Assembly: GCA_947599875.1 (NCBI GenBank)
Contig: CANQFV010000025.1
Location: 1-39,763, forward strand
Length of the DNA: 39,763 bases
Direction of reading: 5' to 3'
From: an uncultured Oscillospiraceae bacterium
Lineage (GTDB): Bacteria > Bacillota > Clostridia > Oscillospirales > Oscillospiraceae
A model generated the notes under the pieces. That model had not been told where the DNA came from. It was given only the letters and a program-made list of their open reading frames with translations, and did not search any database. Numbering within the stretch: the first letter of the stretch is position 1; every line of letters starts with the position of its first letter. The position numbers and the translations under genes were made by a program. Positions 12,981 through 28,301 of this stretch are shown here, in pieces.

Positions 12981-12991
12981 CAAGAGTCCCC

Positions 12992-13101
12992 CTGTAGGGG
13001 CCGATGACCTCATCGGCCCGGGCGGGTTGGGTGACAGAGTGGTTGCGTTAAGATAGAAAACTTTAAAATTTGCCGTAGGGGCCGCCGCCCACGGCGGCCC
13101 G
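12992..13101 (+). repeat. 110-bp composite repeat, copy 1 (two GTAGGGGCC hairpins around a conserved core)
   Basis: CTGTAGGGGCCGATGA... and CCGTAGGGGCCGCCG... hairpins flank a core with GGTGACAGAG, TTGCGTTAAGAT and AAAACTTTAAAAT. Near-identical copies are at 18501-18610 (reverse) and 32217-32325. Nothing codes here. Confidence 0.7.
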
Positions 13102-13214
13102 TGTCGCGATGATTGAGGGCCGCAACAACGCCGGGTGGAGGCCTCCAACGTTTACGGGAAGCCGGCGTCCCTGTTGAACCGCCTCCTCAGGTATCGAAGA
13201 TAGATCGTTGCCAT

Positions 13215-13495
13215 TGCCTCACGGGGACGGTTCTTTGGTTCCACCAGTGTGCGCACTGGTGTTACAAAATAACCGTCCCCTTTGTCCCACCTACTCAGTA
13301 GAACAAACGCAAAAAGAATCTATCAATAAGGAAGCACCTTCCCGCGGGACTGAGGGACGGTTTTTTTGTCACACCGGAGCAAAGCGGAGGTGGGACTAAA
13401 GAACCGTCCCTCTGTCACGCCCGCAGGGGGTTGGATTATATTATGTCAGGCTGTGACGAAGTTGGGACAAAAGAACCGTCCCCTTGTCTCTCATC
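13215..13495. repeat. Cluster of three ACCGTCCC-type REP units
   Basis: Units near 13218-13290 and 13345-13423 are paired inverted halves (GGGACGGTT...AACCGTCCC); 13464-13493 is a half unit. The first contains ACCAGTG-TGCG-CACTGGT as its inner hairpin. No gene is visible between 13102 and 13510. Confidence 0.7.
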
Positions 13496-13510
13496 TTTTC
13501 TGCTTTGAAA

Positions 13511-15109
13511 TCAGTGGACATTGAACGTTAGCGTTATTGTAAACCCACTTCCTTTATATGTTCCTTTGCAAGTTACTGTAGCCGTACCCGAACGAAGAGC
13601 TTCAACTGTCATACCATTTATCTTTATAATACTTGTATCGGTTGTAGTTAATTCAGTGATCACAATGTCACTACCGCCCGTAACTGTGCAATTTATTTTA
13701 TTTTTGCTGCATATTTGAATCGAACCCGTCAATGTCTTATTGTTATACTGTGGAACATTCTTGTTCCCAAGTGGAATATGTGCAATTGTTATCGCTTCGT
13801 GGTGTATTGTCTCTTCACAGGTGCCAATTTCAGAAGCGGTAGTGTTATTATCCGTCCTCGGATTAGCATCTTTAGGCCAAACGTCAAAGGATAGCACCCC
13901 GCCGCTCTTGGTTGCGGATACGCGGACAACAGAACCTTTCGTGTCTTTCATTGTATCAAAAAGGGTAAGCTCCGCATTAATGTCATCAAGCGAGGTTGTC
14001 CCGGACGAAACGCTTCCGGTAAGGCTTACAATTGACCCGATTTTATCCAAATAATCATCGCTTTTCGGGTCGTACTTTCCGTCCTCAGTGCCAGACATAT
14101 TAACAACGCTTTGCATCAACCCGTAATAAACCATACCGTCTACATAGGCCTGTGTGTACGTTGTCTCCCCTACTGTGTAAACGGCGTTATTTAAATAATC
14201 GTTTGCCGCTTTATGTAGTTCGGCCCAATCCTCAGACTCAAACGGATTTACATCTGATTGCCCACCTGGCCGGGCTTCGGTTGCAATATAGCCTGAAAGC
14301 AAATCCGTTTTATTATCAGTCGAATGGAGGAAATCCAGCGTTTCCTGGCTTATATTGTATTTGCTTCCGCTTTCCGTAACAAATTCCGCAAAAGCATTGT
14401 TCCTTGCCATGCAGGCCGCGAGAAGGGCAGCCGCCTGTTCCTTGCTTGATCCGGCATCTGCAAAAGATGTAGTCAGGCCATTAGTTTGCCATGCCGTTCC
14501 CATTGCGGCTCCGCTGTTTGTGCCTGTCGTGGTCGTATACTGTGCCGCCAATTGCAGATATTCACCGGGCGTCTTTTCGCCTTTACCAGCTTGTTCAGCA
14601 GCCGTTTTCAGGACTTCTTCCCACATCTCGTCTGCGCTCGCTGCATACCGCGCAACAGGTATGTTTCCGTTCGCGTCAACAGCTCCGCTATCCCATAAGG
14701 CCTTCAGTCCAATTGTATCCGCCAGTTTGGCGAGTTGAGCTATTTGAGACCCAATATCAGCCCCTTTCTGCCATTTGTCATACTTTAAACGGGTACTGCT
14801 CAAATCCATCGCATCCGAAAGCGCAGTCTGTACCTTCGGTATAGCCTGCACCCCGCTGTTGGTGAGGTAAACGGACAGCCGTGCACCTTCCCCAAATAAG
14901 CTCGAGTCCGCGTAGTCCGCCAGCTCCAGTGCGTGCATGATTTCCCCCACGGTCTGCTTATCCAGCCCCTTTTTCGTGTGTTCGATGTACCCCGTGTAGG
15001 CCACCGCGCCCACGGCGGAGAGGATCGCCAGGATCGCTATGACGACGATCAGCTCCACTAAGGTGAAGCCCCTGTTTTTGCTCTTTTCTGTTGAAGAATT
15101 TTGTTTCAT
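13511..15109 (-). CDS. Large type IV pilin-like protein with a C-terminal Big2-like domain
   Basis: The start at ATG 15109 follows AGGAGGGCAGAC; an in-frame extension upstream to 15388 crosses the inverted repeat and has no ribosome site. The 532-residue protein begins with a class III signal: basic leader KSKNRG, predicted prepilin cleavage after Gly14, mature start FTLVELIVVIAILAILSA with Glu at mature position 5 (Glu19). A long Ser/Thr/Asn/Ala-rich region of unknown fold follows (about 45-430). The end (about 445-532, with SIIKINGMTVEALRSGTATV) matches the pattern of bacterial Ig-like Big2 domains. It is far longer than ordinary pilins, no pilus assembly genes are nearby, and it is AT-richer than its neighbours. 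The promoter that could drive it lies in an apparently invertible segment and points the other way here. Confidence 0.85.
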   Translation of the reverse strand: MKQNSSTEKSKNRGFTLVELIVVIAILAILSAVGAVAYTGYIEHTKKGLDKQTVGEIMHALELADYADSSLFGEGARLSVYLTNSGVQAIPKVQTALSDAMDLSSTRLKYDKWQKGADIGSQIAQLAKLADTIGLKALWDSGAVDANGNIPVARYAASADEMWEEVLKTAAEQAGKGEKTPGEYLQLAAQYTTTTGTNSGAAMGTAWQTNGLTTSFADAGSSKEQAAALLAACMARNNAFAEFVTESGSKYNISQETLDFLHSTDNKTDLLSGYIATEARPGGQSDVNPFESEDWAELHKAANDYLNNAVYTVGETTYTQAYVDGMVYYGLMQSVVNMSGTEDGKYDPKSDDYLDKIGSIVSLTGSVSSGTTSLDDINAELTLFDTMKDTKGSVVRVSATKSGGVLSFDVWPKDANPRTDNNTTASEIGTCEETIHHEAITIAHIPLGNKNVPQYNNKTLTGSIQICSKNKINCTVTGGSDIVITELTTTDTSIIKINGMTVEALRSGTATVTCKGTYKGSGFTITLTFNVH

Positions 15110-15210
15110 GTCTGCCCTCCTGATGTTCTTTCCCGGAGGCTCCTCCTCCGGCCTCGTCTTGGTGCATAAAAAGATGGAAGAATCGCCTTTTGACCTGCCC
15201 CTCCCCACGC
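15110..15210 (-). promoter_or_regulatory. 5' leader of the pilin-like gene
   Basis: The minus strand has a CCGGAGG-AGGAG-CCTCCGG hairpin about 15-45 bases before the AGGAGGG ribosome site. I find no consensus -35/-10 pair on this strand between the gene and the left inverted repeat, so expression seems to depend on a promoter delivered from the segment beyond it. Confidence 0.5.
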
Positions 15211-15241
15211 GAAAAATGGACATTATTGATATAATGTCCAT
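15211..15241 (+). repeat. Left inverted repeat of the switch (IR-L)
   Basis: The repeat contains TGGACATTA-TTGATA-TAATGTCCA: two 9-bp arms around an asymmetric 6-bp centre, the layout of a tyrosine-recombinase core site. It shares 23 contiguous bases, plus a GAAAAA flank, with IR-R. Confidence 0.85.
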
Positions 15242-15404
15242 TTTTCTGTCGTTCTCTTGGGTTGTCTTAGGTACTTCTTCCACTCGTACTTTAGCGAGGT
15301 GAACACCTGAGGGTACGCTGACGCTCACCCTGGCCCCTTTCCGTTTTCCGGAAAGCTCCAGAGTGCGTCGCGGCGTGGTCTTTTTCATTTTTTTCGGGGA
15401 ATTT

Positions 15405-15468
15405 GCCTAACGGCACTTGACATTTTAAGGTTTTCGGCTATAATAAGTACCGAAGAATTTCGTTAGGC
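15405..15468 (+). promoter_or_regulatory. Consensus promoter inside the invertible segment, with flanking dyad
   Basis: TTGACA (15417-15422) and TATAAT (15439-15444) are 16 bases apart, directed rightward. GCCTAACG (15405-15412) and CGTTAGGC (15461-15468) form an 8-bp inverted repeat enclosing the promoter, a possible regulator site. In the present orientation transcription would enter the recombinase gene antisense. Confidence 0.8.
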
Positions 15469-15491
15469 TTGCGCTTCCCCATCGCGACCTA

Positions 15492-15522
15492 ATGGACATT
15501 ATATCAATAATGTCTCTTTTTC
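15492..15522 (-). repeat. Right inverted repeat of the switch (IR-R)
   Basis: This is the reverse complement of IR-L except for two bases next to the GAAAAA flank. The asymmetric centre (TTGATA on the minus strand) is opposite in orientation to IR-L, so recombination between them would invert rather than delete. It also encodes the last codons and stop of the recombinase. Confidence 0.85.
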
Positions 15523-16424
15523 TTCTTCCCCCTCCTGGACTTCTTCCGGGAGGGGTTCTTTGTTATTGTTTTTGGCGTCTCCTCCTCCCGGTATAGGAGT
15601 CCTAAGCTGTTGATGAGCTTCCGATGTTCATCTCCCGTGGATTTGATATAGATTCGAGTCGTTTCGATGCTGCTGTGGCCTAAAACGTCAGAGAGCTGGG
15701 GCATGTCCCCGCCGTTCTTGAGGAAGGTTCTTGCAAAGAGCTTGCGGAGGTTATGGGGATGCACTTTGGAGGCCAAAACCCCGGCCCGCTCGGCGGTCTC
15801 CTTCATAATGGCCCAGATGCGCTTCCGGCCCAGGGGGCGGCCCTTCTGCCCCCGGAAGATGACCCCGGATGTGATGCCCCGCTCCTTTGCGAATTTCTCA
15901 AGCTTGACGCAAAGCGCCTCCGGCATGATGACGCTTCGATTCTTGCGCTTACAGAGTACGCCCACGTCCCGCCGTTTCACGGCCTCCACGGTGAAGTAGC
16001 GAAGTTCAGACACTCGTATCCCGCTGGAGCAGAGGGTCTCTAAGAGCAGCCGGTCCCGGGGATTCTTGGCGGCTTTCAGGAGCTTCTCATATTCCTTCTC
16101 GGTGAGTACCTTTTCTTCCGGGAGGTAGGTGGTTCGCTGAATGATCATCCGTTGCGTTCCGCAGTCAATCCACTTCATAAAACTGAAGAACGCGAAGAGT
16201 GAGGCTAAAATGGTGTTGATGCTGGAGGGTTTGTACTCCCGGTCAACCAGGCTCTGTTTGTACGCTTGGGTTGTCTCCGACGTGACCTCCTGTCCGCCGA
16301 GAAAGGCGGAGTAGCTGATGACGTCGTGGAGATACCGCCCAATGGTGTGGACGCTGCACGAGTTGGAGATGAGCTGTGCCCGGAATCCCGCCACAGCCTC
16401 CGGTGTGATGGTGCGAGTTGTCAT
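15504..16424 (-). CDS. Tyrosine recombinase/integrase, probable invertase of the adjacent switch
   Basis: The 306-residue protein has an N-terminal SAM-like DNA-binding domain (about 8-90) and a C-terminal catalytic domain with all core residues visible: R137 in SSGIRVSELR, H224 and R227 in HPHNLRKLFA, H250 in VLGHSSIETTR and the nucleophile Tyr259. The tail is strongly basic (RKKSRRGKKKKRHY). The start is ATG 16424 after AAGGAGGACTTTACC. The stop and last three codons (RHY) lie in the right inverted repeat, whose shared core keeps them intact in either orientation. There are no phage or ICE genes around it, so a dedicated inversion role is the best reading; a general integrase remnant is the alternative. 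Confidence 0.92.
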   Translation of the reverse strand: MTTRTITPEAVAGFRAQLISNSCSVHTIGRYLHDVISYSAFLGGQEVTSETTQAYKQSLVDREYKPSSINTILASLFAFFSFMKWIDCGTQRMIIQRTTYLPEEKVLTEKEYEKLLKAAKNPRDRLLLETLCSSGIRVSELRYFTVEAVKRRDVGVLCKRKNRSVIMPEALCVKLEKFAKERGITSGVIFRGQKGRPLGRKRIWAIMKETAERAGVLASKVHPHNLRKLFARTFLKNGGDMPQLSDVLGHSSIETTRIYIKSTGDEHRKLINSLGLLYREEETPKTITKNPSRKKSRRGKKKKRHY

Positions 16425-16508
16425 GGTAAAGTCCTCCTTTGTGTTTTGACACAGATTATTTTCTGATGACTCCACTGTATCATGCAAAGGGGGTTTCAGG
16501 CAAGGGGA

Positions 16509-16537
16509 TTGTAAAGCGGGGGAGGATGTGGTAAAAT
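16509..16537 (+). promoter_or_regulatory. Promoter of the flavin reductase gene
   Basis: TTGTAA (16509-16514) and TAAAAT (16532-16537) are 17 bases apart, about 50 bases before the ATG. It is divergent from the recombinase gene. Confidence 0.65.
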
Positions 16538-16587
16538 AAGCGGGCGGGGAATCCCCCGGAGCAAACGAATCGCAAGGAGCAGAGCAT

Positions 16588-17172
16588 ATGAAAAAAGATC
16601 TTGGTGTGAAACCCTATCTCTTCCCCATGCCGGCGTATATGATCGGCACATACAACGAGGACGAGACCGTTGACGTGATGATGATGGCCTGGGGCGGCAT
16701 CTGCGCGGAGGACATGGTGGCGCTGAATCTGGAGGCCGACCACAAGACCGTGGCCAATCTCCGCGCCCGCGGTGCCTTCACCCTGGCCGTCCCCGGGCGG
16801 GACACGATGGAGGCCTCCGACTATCTGGGTATCGTCTCCGGCAACAAGGAGCCGGACAAGTTCCGCCGCACCGGCCTGCACGCGGTGAAAAGTGCCCGGG
16901 TGGACGCGCCGGTGATCCAGGAGTACCCCCTGACCCTGGAGTGTGTGGTAGAGCGGATGGAGGAGGAGCCTTACGGCCTTCGGGTCCTGGGCAGGATCGT
17001 CAACGTCCTGGCCGAGGAGAGCGTACTGGACGACAAGGGCCGCGTGGACGCGGGGAAGCTGGACACCTTCCTCTTTGACCAGATGCGAAACGGCTACTAC
17101 GCCGTGGGCCAGGTCGTGGGCAAGGCGTGGCACAGCGGCGCGGGATTCATCCAGGACAGCCCGTCCAAATAG
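16588..17172 (+). CDS. Flavin reductase-like domain protein
   Basis: The 194-residue protein resembles the FMN-binding split-barrel flavin reductase family: YLFPMPAYMIGTYNEDETVDVMMMAWGGIC near the start (the usual P-hydrophobic-hydrophobic-S/G pattern around the flavin phosphate), NLRARGAFTLAVP, and ASDYLGIVSG with a following KFRRTGL segment. Such proteins bind FMN and reduce it or act as small oxidoreductases; the substrate cannot be told. A GCAAGGAGCAGAGCAT site precedes the ATG. It appears monocistronic and ends in a short hairpin element. Confidence 0.85.
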   Translation: MKKDLGVKPYLFPMPAYMIGTYNEDETVDVMMMAWGGICAEDMVALNLEADHKTVANLRARGAFTLAVPGRDTMEASDYLGIVSGNKEPDKFRRTGLHAVKSARVDAPVIQEYPLTLECVVERMEEEPYGLRVLGRIVNVLAEESVLDDKGRVDAGKLDTFLFDQMRNGYYAVGQVVGKAWHSGAGFIQDSPSK

Positions 17173-18203: not shown

Positions 18204-18232
18204 ATTATACTCTCGCACCGCAAGGTTGTCAA
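18204..18232 (-). promoter_or_regulatory. Consensus promoter of the phosphoribosyltransferase gene
   Basis: Minus-strand TTGACA (18227-18232) and TATAAT (18204-18209) are 17 bases apart; both hexamers are perfect consensus. The leader is about 60 bases. Confidence 0.85.
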
Positions 18233-18335
18233 AAGTTTTCGGTAAAATTCCCCGTGAGGTTGGGCAAATTTGCTAAGAATTGAAGCGGGACACGGGGAAG
18301 GGCGGCGCCGTGCGTCACTGGGCAACCGGTGTGAC

Positions 18336-18455
18336 ACGGGGACGGTTCCTTAGTCACACCAGTGTGCGCACTGGTGGTACAAAAGAACCGTCCCCGCTGT
18401 GTCAACGCGCAAACCTTCGTCCTTGCTGTACGGGCCGCCGCCCACGGCGGCCCAT
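18336..18455. repeat. ACCGTCCC REP unit followed by a GGGCCGCCG hairpin
   Basis: GGGGACGGTTCCTTAGT and ACAAAAGAACCGTCCCC flank ACCAGTG-TGCG-CACTGGT (about 18334-18395). A single GGGCCGCCG-CCCA-CGGCGGCCC hairpin follows at 18428-18453. Confidence 0.7.
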
Positions 18456-18500
18456 GTTTCGATTACCACCGAGTATCGATTAAACGCAGCTCAACCAACG

Positions 18501-18610
18501 CGGGCCGCCGTGGGCGGCGGCCCCTACGGCAAATTTTAAAGTTTTCTATCTTAACGCAACCGCTCTGTCACCCAACCCGCCCGGGCCGATGAGGTCATCG
18601 GCCCCTACGG
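18501..18610 (-). repeat. 110-bp composite repeat, copy 2 (reverse)
   Basis: It is the reverse complement of 12992-13101 with few changes, including the AAAACTTTAAAAT core and the two GTAGGGGCC hairpins. Confidence 0.7.
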
Positions 18611-18654
18611 GTTTCCCGGCAACGTCGCAGGCCCCGTCTACGCGCTCCCCGGGG

Positions 18655-27545: not shown

Positions 27546-27655
27546 CTGTGCAGAGTAGGGCGGCGCGCGTAAAGTGCCCCGGAAACGGAGAGTTGTTCCG
27601 GGGACGAAGAGGTTCATGCCTCGCGGTGCGCCTTCCGCATCCCGCTGCGACAGAG
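27546..27655 (+). ncRNA. Tetrahydrofolate (THF) riboswitch
   Basis: The sequence carries the conserved THF aptamer blocks: AGAGTAGGGCGG, GCGTAAAGTGCC, a CCCCGG/CCGGGG hairpin, GACGAAGAGGTT, and CCGCATCCCGCTGC at the 3' end. GGCGCGC near the start pairs with the GCGCC block near 27628. It sits in front of a folate-type ECF S component, the classic target. Recognition is from memory of the consensus; a covariance search would confirm it. Confidence 0.88.
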
Positions 27656-27663
27656 GGATCCAT

Positions 27664-27738
27664 ACTTATCTTCCCCCGGGGAAGGAATAAGTACCGCCTC
27701 CTGCCTTGTGGACATTTCTGCATGGAGGGAGGCTTTTT
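27664..27738 (+). terminator. Expression platform of the THF riboswitch
   Basis: A first hairpin pairs ACTTAT/CTTCCCC with GGGGAAG/ATAAGT (27664-27693). A second pairs GCCTCC (27696-27701) with GGAGGC (27728-27733), followed by five T residues. The second also covers the GGAGG ribosome site of folT, so termination, translation block, or both are possible. Confidence 0.6.
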
Positions 27739-27740
27739 CT

Positions 27741-28301
27741 GTGAAAAAATTCAAGGAAGATCTGGTCAGCTCCGCCCTGGAGTTTAAAAAGCTCCGGGTG
27801 CTGTGCGTCCTGGCGGTGATGGGGGCGCTGGCCGTCGCCCTGGAGGGCGTCGCCAGTATCCGCATCACGCCCAATATCAAGATCGGCTTCTCCGGCTACC
27901 CAAACCAGGTGGTGGATCTGCTGTTCGGCCCCGTCACCGGCGGGGTGTTCGGCGCCGTCATGGATGTTCTCAAGTTCTTCCTCATCCCCACCGGCTACCC
28001 CTTCCACCCCGGCTACACGCTGGACGCGGCGCTGGCGGCCTTCATCTACGGGTGCTTCTACTACCGCCGCCCCGTGCGGCTGTGGAGGATCCTGGCGGCC
28101 AAGGGGATCGTGGCGCTGTTCGTCAACGTGGGCCTTGCCACCTACTGGCAGACCTCCACCTTCGGCCAGGGCTTCTGGGCGCTGTTTCCGGGACGGGCGC
28201 TGAAGAACCTGATCATGTGGCCCATCGAGTCCGGGATCTTCTACGTCATCGCCAAGGGCCTGGAGAGCGCCGGGGCCTTCCGCCTTCTGGACAGAAAGTG
28301 A
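27741..28301 (+). CDS. folT: Folate ECF transporter S component
   Basis: The 186-residue integral membrane protein starts with GTG, eight bases after GGAGG. It has about five to six hydrophobic segments and the S-component pattern near the start (VLCVLAVMGALAVALE, then RITPNIKIGFSGYPNQVVDLLFGPVTGGVFGAVMDVLKFFL, then PGYTLDAALAAFIYG). S components give substrate specificity to the shared EcfAA'T module, which is elsewhere. The THF riboswitch in the leader supports folate as substrate. It converges on tatD with only two bases between stops. Confidence 0.9.
   Translation: MKKFKEDLVSSALEFKKLRVLCVLAVMGALAVALEGVASIRITPNIKIGFSGYPNQVVDLLFGPVTGGVFGAVMDVLKFFLIPTGYPFHPGYTLDAALAAFIYGCFYYRRPVRLWRILAAKGIVALFVNVGLATYWQTSTFGQGFWALFPGRALKNLIMWPIESGIFYVIAKGLESAGAFRLLDRK

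Follow-up and report, generated by a model that had tools for sequence, protein, structure and literature searches.

A predicted invertible promoter ahead of a large type IV pilin-like gene, and its dispersed relatives, in an uncultured Oscillospiraceae bacterium

Anatomy of the locus

In the window (the whole 39,763-nt stretch of DNA that was analysed), a gene for a large pilin-like protein and a gene for a tyrosine recombinase lie on either side of a short segment bounded by inverted repeats. The features of the locus are as follows.

13511-15109, minus strand: large type IV pilin-like protein of 532 aa, with a class III prepilin signal, an N-terminal helix and a variable body
15110-15210, minus strand: pilin leader with the Shine-Dalgarno sequence AGGAGG, which would be transcribed in the ON state
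15211-15242, minus strand: left inverted repeat, on the pilin side; a palindromic site followed by a T-run on the minus strand
15243-15490, no strand: invertible interior, OFF as sequenced, 248/248 identical in five loci
15309-15382, plus strand: predicted insulating terminator, a long hairpin with T-runs (-35.4 kcal/mol)
15417-15444, plus strand: predicted sigma-70-type promoter, TTGACA-16-TATAAT, 12/12 consensus
15452-15473, plus strand: conserved 22-nt element GAAGAATTTCGTTAGGCTTGCG, from alignment and a genus search
15491-15522, plus strand: right inverted repeat, on the recombinase side, holding the recombinase stop codon
15529-15555, plus strand: predicted back-stop intrinsic terminator within the 3' coding end of the recombinase gene, facing the OFF promoter
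15504-16424, minus strand: tyrosine recombinase of 306 aa, XerA/XerD-like (PF00589, 3.8e-28)

The repeats are 32 nt each, complementary at 30/32 positions (24 contiguous) and 248 nt apart, close to the 31-bp inverted repeats around an interior of about 250 bp described in an earlier sequence-only reading of this DNA. Four pairs of at least 26/32 within 600 nt occur in the window, one of them at 30/32; none of 100 dinucleotide shuffles of the window yielded such a pair. Each recombination site has two 12-bp arms flanking an asymmetric 4-nt centre, AATGGACATTAT-TGAT-ATAATGTCCATT, with an imperfect outer arm in the right-hand copy. The sequence-only reading had correctly seen opposed asymmetric centres; its 9-bp arms and 6-bp centre fit less well than a 12+4+12 layout. 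The short segment is bounded by inverted repeats with opposed sites, as an inverton would be.

The recombinase gene is complete, from an ATG at 16424 to a stop codon at 15504-15506, and rather than merely abutting the right repeat, as had been claimed, it ends inside it. With the stop codon placed at the asymmetric centre of the right-hand copy, the protein is in our reading unaltered by inversion. Its translation shows GIRVSEL, HNLR, GHSS and TRIY, and the catalytic signature of tyrosine recombinases is R..HxxR..H..Y. Judged by these motifs and its Pfam profile, the protein belongs to the tyrosine recombinase (phage integrase) family. The closest solved structure by sequence is 4a8e, and the profile NF040815 matches at 6.9e-46, below its cut-off. 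The equivalog cut-offs for XerD (128.7 vs 329.6 bits), XerC (122.3 vs 335.15) and XerA (156.9 vs 220) are missed.

Within the interior, the single TTGACA-16-TATAAT reported earlier stands as an outward promoter by its 12/12 consensus match. Two 12/12 promoters occur in the window against none in 200 shuffles. As sequenced, the one in the interior faces away from the pilin gene, and this orientation bears out the earlier call that the switch is OFF for that gene. After inversion, 179 nt would lie between the -10 box and the pilin ATG, in line with the roughly 170 bases that had been proposed. The pilin gene has the strong ribosome site claimed for it, AGGAGG, and apparently lacks a promoter of its own: none of at least 9/12 is listed on the minus strand of 15110-15210. 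The leader is identical in five copies within the genome. Rfam, run on the window and five loci, identified a THF (tetrahydrofolate) riboswitch alone, away from the leader; it lies at 27549-27649 (plus strand, 93 bits), upstream of an open frame at 27708-28301.

The encoded protein opens with a GFTLVEL class III prepilin signal and a hydrophobic helix (PF07963, 2.9e-9; TIGR02532, 3.3e-8), by which it classes as a type IV pilin. Its similarity to solved pilins is confined to the N-terminus, and its body has no Pfam match above cut-off. The Big2 label given to it earlier is not supported, as Pfam finds no Big_2 at E<=1 in the C-terminus and CBM77, below cut-off, as the sole match there. Big_2 rises above cut-off in one of five C-termini scanned, that of a paralogue (L103, 2.3e-5).

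A dispersed family of pilin-type switches

We examined 55 loci, the window and 54 others. In the recombinase tree, a branch with support 98/91 separates 35 pilin-type recombinases, whose target is a pilin (26) or cut off by a contig end (9), from 20 others. Twenty-seven of the 35 pilin-type loci have a complete inverton and eight are cut by contig ends. Wherever the downstream gene of this branch is readable, it begins as a prepilin (26/26).

The 331-bp region 15200-15530 occurs in five copies at 100% identity in the genome, the window included, next to diverged and contig-end copies. At E<=1e-20, a search with the recombinase returns 15 matches in the same genome, eight of them at 97-100% identity. 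Three of these eight run out at a contig end that falls within the repeat or next to it, and the same leader stands before three pilins at contig ends; the pieces are consistent with eight window-type units if such ends are joined. Altogether, the 15 recombinases divide into 12 with a complete inverton (10 OFF, 2 ON) and three that are cut.

The repeat core GACATTATNNATATAATGTC has 41 matches in 7 of 34 genus genomes, and 40 of them fall at pilin-type switches by coordinate comparison; a reversed-pattern control gives none in the 34. Among the matches examined, pilin-type recombinases come from these seven genomes and no others. The repeat cores beside recombinases of the other branch differ from this one. 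At the level of sequence, site type is associated with recombinase type. The sole core copy away from a recognised pilin-type switch in the 34 genomes is at G031:C83:3211-3230. On the sister branch (L073-L092), many readable downstream genes are large and, in our reading, have secreted-looking N-termini; they are possibly further phase-variable surface genes.

The genome encodes 26 prepilin-type N-termini, 24 of them over the Pfam cut-off. Seventeen of them open large intact pilins (408-544 aa), and 11 of these stand directly behind a complete inverton. About 66 N-terminal residues are well conserved in 14 of the 17, whose overall identity to the window pilin is 27-37%. By these counts, the window locus is one of about fifteen dispersed units, and its pilin one of 17 large type IV pilins.

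Genes for T2SSE ATPases are found on four contigs of the genome (C2, C5, C11 and C75). Two of them, together with a T2SSF protein, lie on C2 about 3.4 kb beyond the pilin of an ON switch (L046), and we read the two as PilB- and PilT-type. Type IV pilus assembly machinery is thus present in the genome, as judged from its T2SSE and T2SSF genes, and the window protein may be assembled into pili. As the switch-pilin units are many and separate, cells could show differing pilin combinations on shared machinery. With what appear to be 17 large pilins, 11 of them directly behind a predicted invertible promoter that has its own recombinase, the cell surface would be combinatorial, which could be tested from switch orientations in existing metagenomes.

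Two further genes were noted near the pilus machinery. Close to the T2SSE genes of C5, a frame of 3752 aa begins with a prepilin-type N-terminus (G000:C5:75017, starting in L106) and may encode a giant pilin. A protein at L105:13975-15102, in the vicinity of the type IV pilus genes on C2, combines a prepilin N-terminus with a CHAP domain.

Orientation of the switches and proposed mechanism

Comparing orientation in related genomes had been suggested with the sequence-only reading, and both orientations are indeed found at switches homologous to that of the window. Among the 27 loci with a complete inverton, OFF predominates in the assemblies (23 loci), and four are ON: L046 and L050 in the same genome as the window, L060 and L061 in G020. 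The five complete window-type copies are all OFF. When interiors are compared, all 83 informative OFF-OFF pairs align directly and all 31 informative OFF-ON pairs align inverted; a further 88 and 45 pairs, respectively, are too weak to call.

The clearest case is that of L059 and L061, from two related genomes, whose interiors are inverted relative to each other and identical at 281/288 positions. Their flanks match on both sides: the match runs along the recombinase gene, whose products agree at 94.9% of residues, and on the other side it extends some 100 bp past the pilin-side repeat; farther out, the leaders diverge and the pilins lie at different distances. Matching flanks around an inverted interior at homologous switches indicate that inversion has occurred in nature. 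As the pair spans two species, it speaks of inversion over evolutionary time and not of its rate. The window recombinase probably acts on its own two sites.

These alignments also bear on whether the unit is a tyrosine-recombinase mobile element or a decayed integrase, with a promoter enclosed by chance, incidental inversion and no role for the pilin as target. The unit is multi-copy and dispersed, as such an element would be, and in six relatives the neighbourhoods of the flavin-reductase gene that flanks the unit here have neither pilin nor recombinase at E<=1e-8. A gene order with a prepilin in the regulated position nevertheless recurs in all 26 readable loci of the branch, and inversion is seen between matching flanks; in passing, we recognised neither element ends nor excision products. 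We regard this explanation as very improbable. In its simplest form it was set aside. Synteny around the six flavin-reductase loci is too poor for a clean empty-site comparison.

A promoter-like sequence stands in all 27 complete invertons and agrees with the consensus at 10-12 of 12 positions. In the window, the insulating hairpin lies upstream of the promoter and points in the same direction. Folding without a shuffled control predicts such a hairpin in 15 of 23 distinct loci, the window among them, with an energy of -35.4 kcal/mol in the window and down to -57.5 in relatives. Such a terminator is not predicted in the other eight of the 23 (L053, L055, L058, L060, L063, L067, L068 and L071). 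Interior hairpins of the opposite direction are also predicted in L047-L049, L052, L067 and L070.

Of the 23 distinct loci, the window again counted, 16 have a predicted back-stop hairpin within the recombinase 3' end, likewise by folding without a shuffled control. This hairpin is not predicted in seven: six have the repeat palindrome and T-run alone, and L070 has neither. A simple terminator scan of 13000-17000 finds two terminator-like sites against a shuffle mean of 5.6, that is, no excess. The left palindrome with its T-run (-12.9 kcal/mol) is crossed by the ON leader, where it could act as a weak terminator. That palindrome aside, the window locus has no predicted terminator against read-through from the recombinase gene to the pilin gene in the OFF state.

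Directly downstream of the promoter lies the conserved element GAAGAATTTCRTNNGGCTTGYG. Allowing up to one mismatch, a search of the 34 genus genomes finds it 24 times, always at a pilin-type switch and in the same seven genomes as the repeat core; a control pattern has no match in the 34. The element is clear in 20 of 23 distinct invertons, partial in L046 and L050 and missing from L071.

We consider it very probable (about 0.9) that 15211-15522 is a phase-variation switch, in which a recombinase flips a promoter and terminator cassette driving one pilin of a multi-unit repertoire. The anatomy, the natural inversion at homologous loci and the family can be read directly from the sequences. In the proposed mechanism, the adjacent tyrosine recombinase would act on the two inverted sites and flip the insulating terminator together with the promoter. 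In the OFF state, the promoter would read into the recombinase gene from its 3' side, and the resulting transcript would end at the back-stop terminator. In the ON state, the promoter would lie about 170 nt upstream of the large pilin gene and drive it, and transcripts running on from the recombinase gene would be stopped at the insulating terminator. Consensus matches and predicted folds suggest that the promoter and the terminators function as such. The same arrangement would be repeated in about fifteen dispersed units, each with a recombinase, a switch and a pilin of conserved N-terminus and variable body.

The prevalence of the OFF orientation invites another view of the same DNA. The main product could be the OFF-state transcript, a short RNA or an antisense into the recombinase gene, serving feedback on the recombinase, with pilin control secondary. 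The commoner orientation (23/27) points the promoter at the recombinase 3' end, and the conserved element stands at the start of this transcript; the predicted back-stops in 16 of 23 loci, with a palindrome and T-run in six more, should however end an antisense early. We give this possibility very little weight.

A different rival takes its model from cwpV of Clostridium difficile, where RecV, a tyrosine recombinase, inverts a short stretch of DNA ahead of a surface gene that is expressed in about 5% of cells, as the CwpV paper describes it (PMC2784873); RecV switches have also been treated genome-wide (PMC5903667). In the account given in the former, recV does not adjoin cwpV and the promoter lies outside the invertible segment (PMC2784873), and inversion is proposed to form or remove a terminator on a transcript started outside. 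Applied to the window, inversion would make or break a terminator on a transcript coming from the recombinase gene, and the promoter would not be what is moved. A strong interior hairpin terminator does reverse its direction on inversion, and recombinase and pilin genes are co-directional. Against this, 27 of 27 complete invertons hold a promoter-like sequence of 10-12/12, and in the ON state the interior terminator would block recombinase read-through, with the promoter downstream of it and facing the pilin. We consider a cwpV-like mode very improbable here. On the evidence of that paper, the window locus resembles the RecV/cwpV system in the inversion of a short segment ahead of a surface gene by a tyrosine recombinase, and differs from cwpV in having a recombinase beside each switch and a promoter-like consensus sequence inside the segment.

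Shared switch blocks and comparison with known systems

Switch DNA in this family can be more uniform than the recombinase genes beside it. Among the eight window-type recombinases (97-99% protein identity), 15-29% of comparable fourfold sites differ over the 28 pairs, whereas the five complete copies, compared in 10 pairs, have interiors identical at 248/248 positions throughout. In G020, the recombinases of L053 and L068 are 55% identical, yet their 205-nt interiors are the same, within a near-identical block of about 440 bp that starts some 15-20 bp outside the first repeat and runs into the pilin N-terminus. Across genomes, L056 and L057 share interiors at 92-93% identity with L059, L061 and L051, while the recombinases are 54-56% identical. 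The contrast is weaker in other sets. In the window's own genome, the interiors of L047-L049 are 93-96% identical, with 22-26% fourfold differences. The interiors of L053, L054, L055 and L058, from four genomes, are 64-74% identical.

The near-perfect conservation of a switch block beside very different recombinases raises the question of a homogenising process. An exchange between loci of nothing but the interior, by site-specific recombination, was considered and rejected, since the identical blocks continue beyond the pilin-side repeat and reach into the pilin N-terminus. For the same reason homologous gene conversion fits better, and we infer that it homogenises the switch block. Alternatives are strong constraint or, for the window group, assembly collapse; against an assembly artefact as the general cause, L053 and L068 show the same pattern of identity in another assembly.

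The pilin bodies are mosaics. Two pilins of the genome with unlike N-termini are 62-92% identical per 40-residue stretch across most of the mid-body and 16-32% at the C-terminus. One G017 pilin, although its N-terminus is unlike, has 79% identity to a pilin of this genome.

It is possible, although we lean against it, that these features make up a coordinated pilin wardrobe, with cross-acting recombinases, homogenised switch blocks and a common control element. One site type common to about fifteen units would let the recombinases cross-act between loci. Gene conversion, perhaps aided by recombinase cutting, would homogenise the block, while recombinases and pilin bodies would shuffle around it. 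The conserved element would then be a common control point that coordinates the choice of pilins expressed, acting in antitermination, as a repressor site or as an accessory site for recombination.

In Moraxella and in the PilV shufflon, type IV pilins are also varied by inversion of DNA, there of pilin coding sequence; here the promoter would flip before intact pilin genes. The examples of type IV pilin inversion known to us involve coding sequence at one locus. The E. coli fim switch is also a single locus, and its fimbriae belong to a class other than type IV pili, whereas the present family comprises many loci and type IV pilins. In Bacteroides fragilis, many phase-variable surface loci are inverted by one global recombinase, Mpi; both systems are multi-locus, with one recombinase per locus in the present case.

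In the fim switch, as mentioned in the CwpV paper, an invertible segment controls the fimbrial subunit (PMC2784873). The hCom2 study links an inverton group, number 139 (33 invertons, 32 from Clostridia), to invertase group 35, made of tyrosine recombinases (PMC11892184). Gut invertons of the group 139 type are like the window locus in their inverted repeats, short segment and tyrosine recombinase within 5 kb, and we set them beside it by this layout as reported, not by repeat motif (PMC11892184). The words pilin and pili do not occur in the main text of that study. PilB of Streptococcus sanguinis is described as a modular type IV pilin (PMC8179133); like the window pilin it joins a pilin N-terminus to a large extra part, so that the likeness seen is one of layout.

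Our literature search, of incomplete coverage, returned no paper combining inverton with prepilin-type, which falls short of establishing absence from print. Similarly, among the matches listed from this incomplete literature, no title or abstract opening describes promoter inversion of type IV pilins. In our judgement, promoter inversion is an already known class of mechanism, and what appears to be new is its service to a repertoire of large type IV pilins. Beyond the sequence-only reading, the analysis adds the dispersed family, switch DNA that is identical despite 55%-identical recombinases, flanking predicted terminators in most loci and the 22-nt element.

Other sequence features were observed around the locus. 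The second 12/12 promoter of the window lies at 18204-18232 on the minus strand, at the start of a phosphoribosyltransferase-like gene. An inverted repeat pair of 114 nt (12991-13104 and 18498-18611), 97% complementary, brackets the pilin gene, the recombinase gene and two more. Dispersed palindromic repeats around GGGACGGTTCTTT lie at 13220-13488 and 18326-18400; at other loci, palindromes of this type also stand within the pilin leader and resemble strong terminators by prediction.
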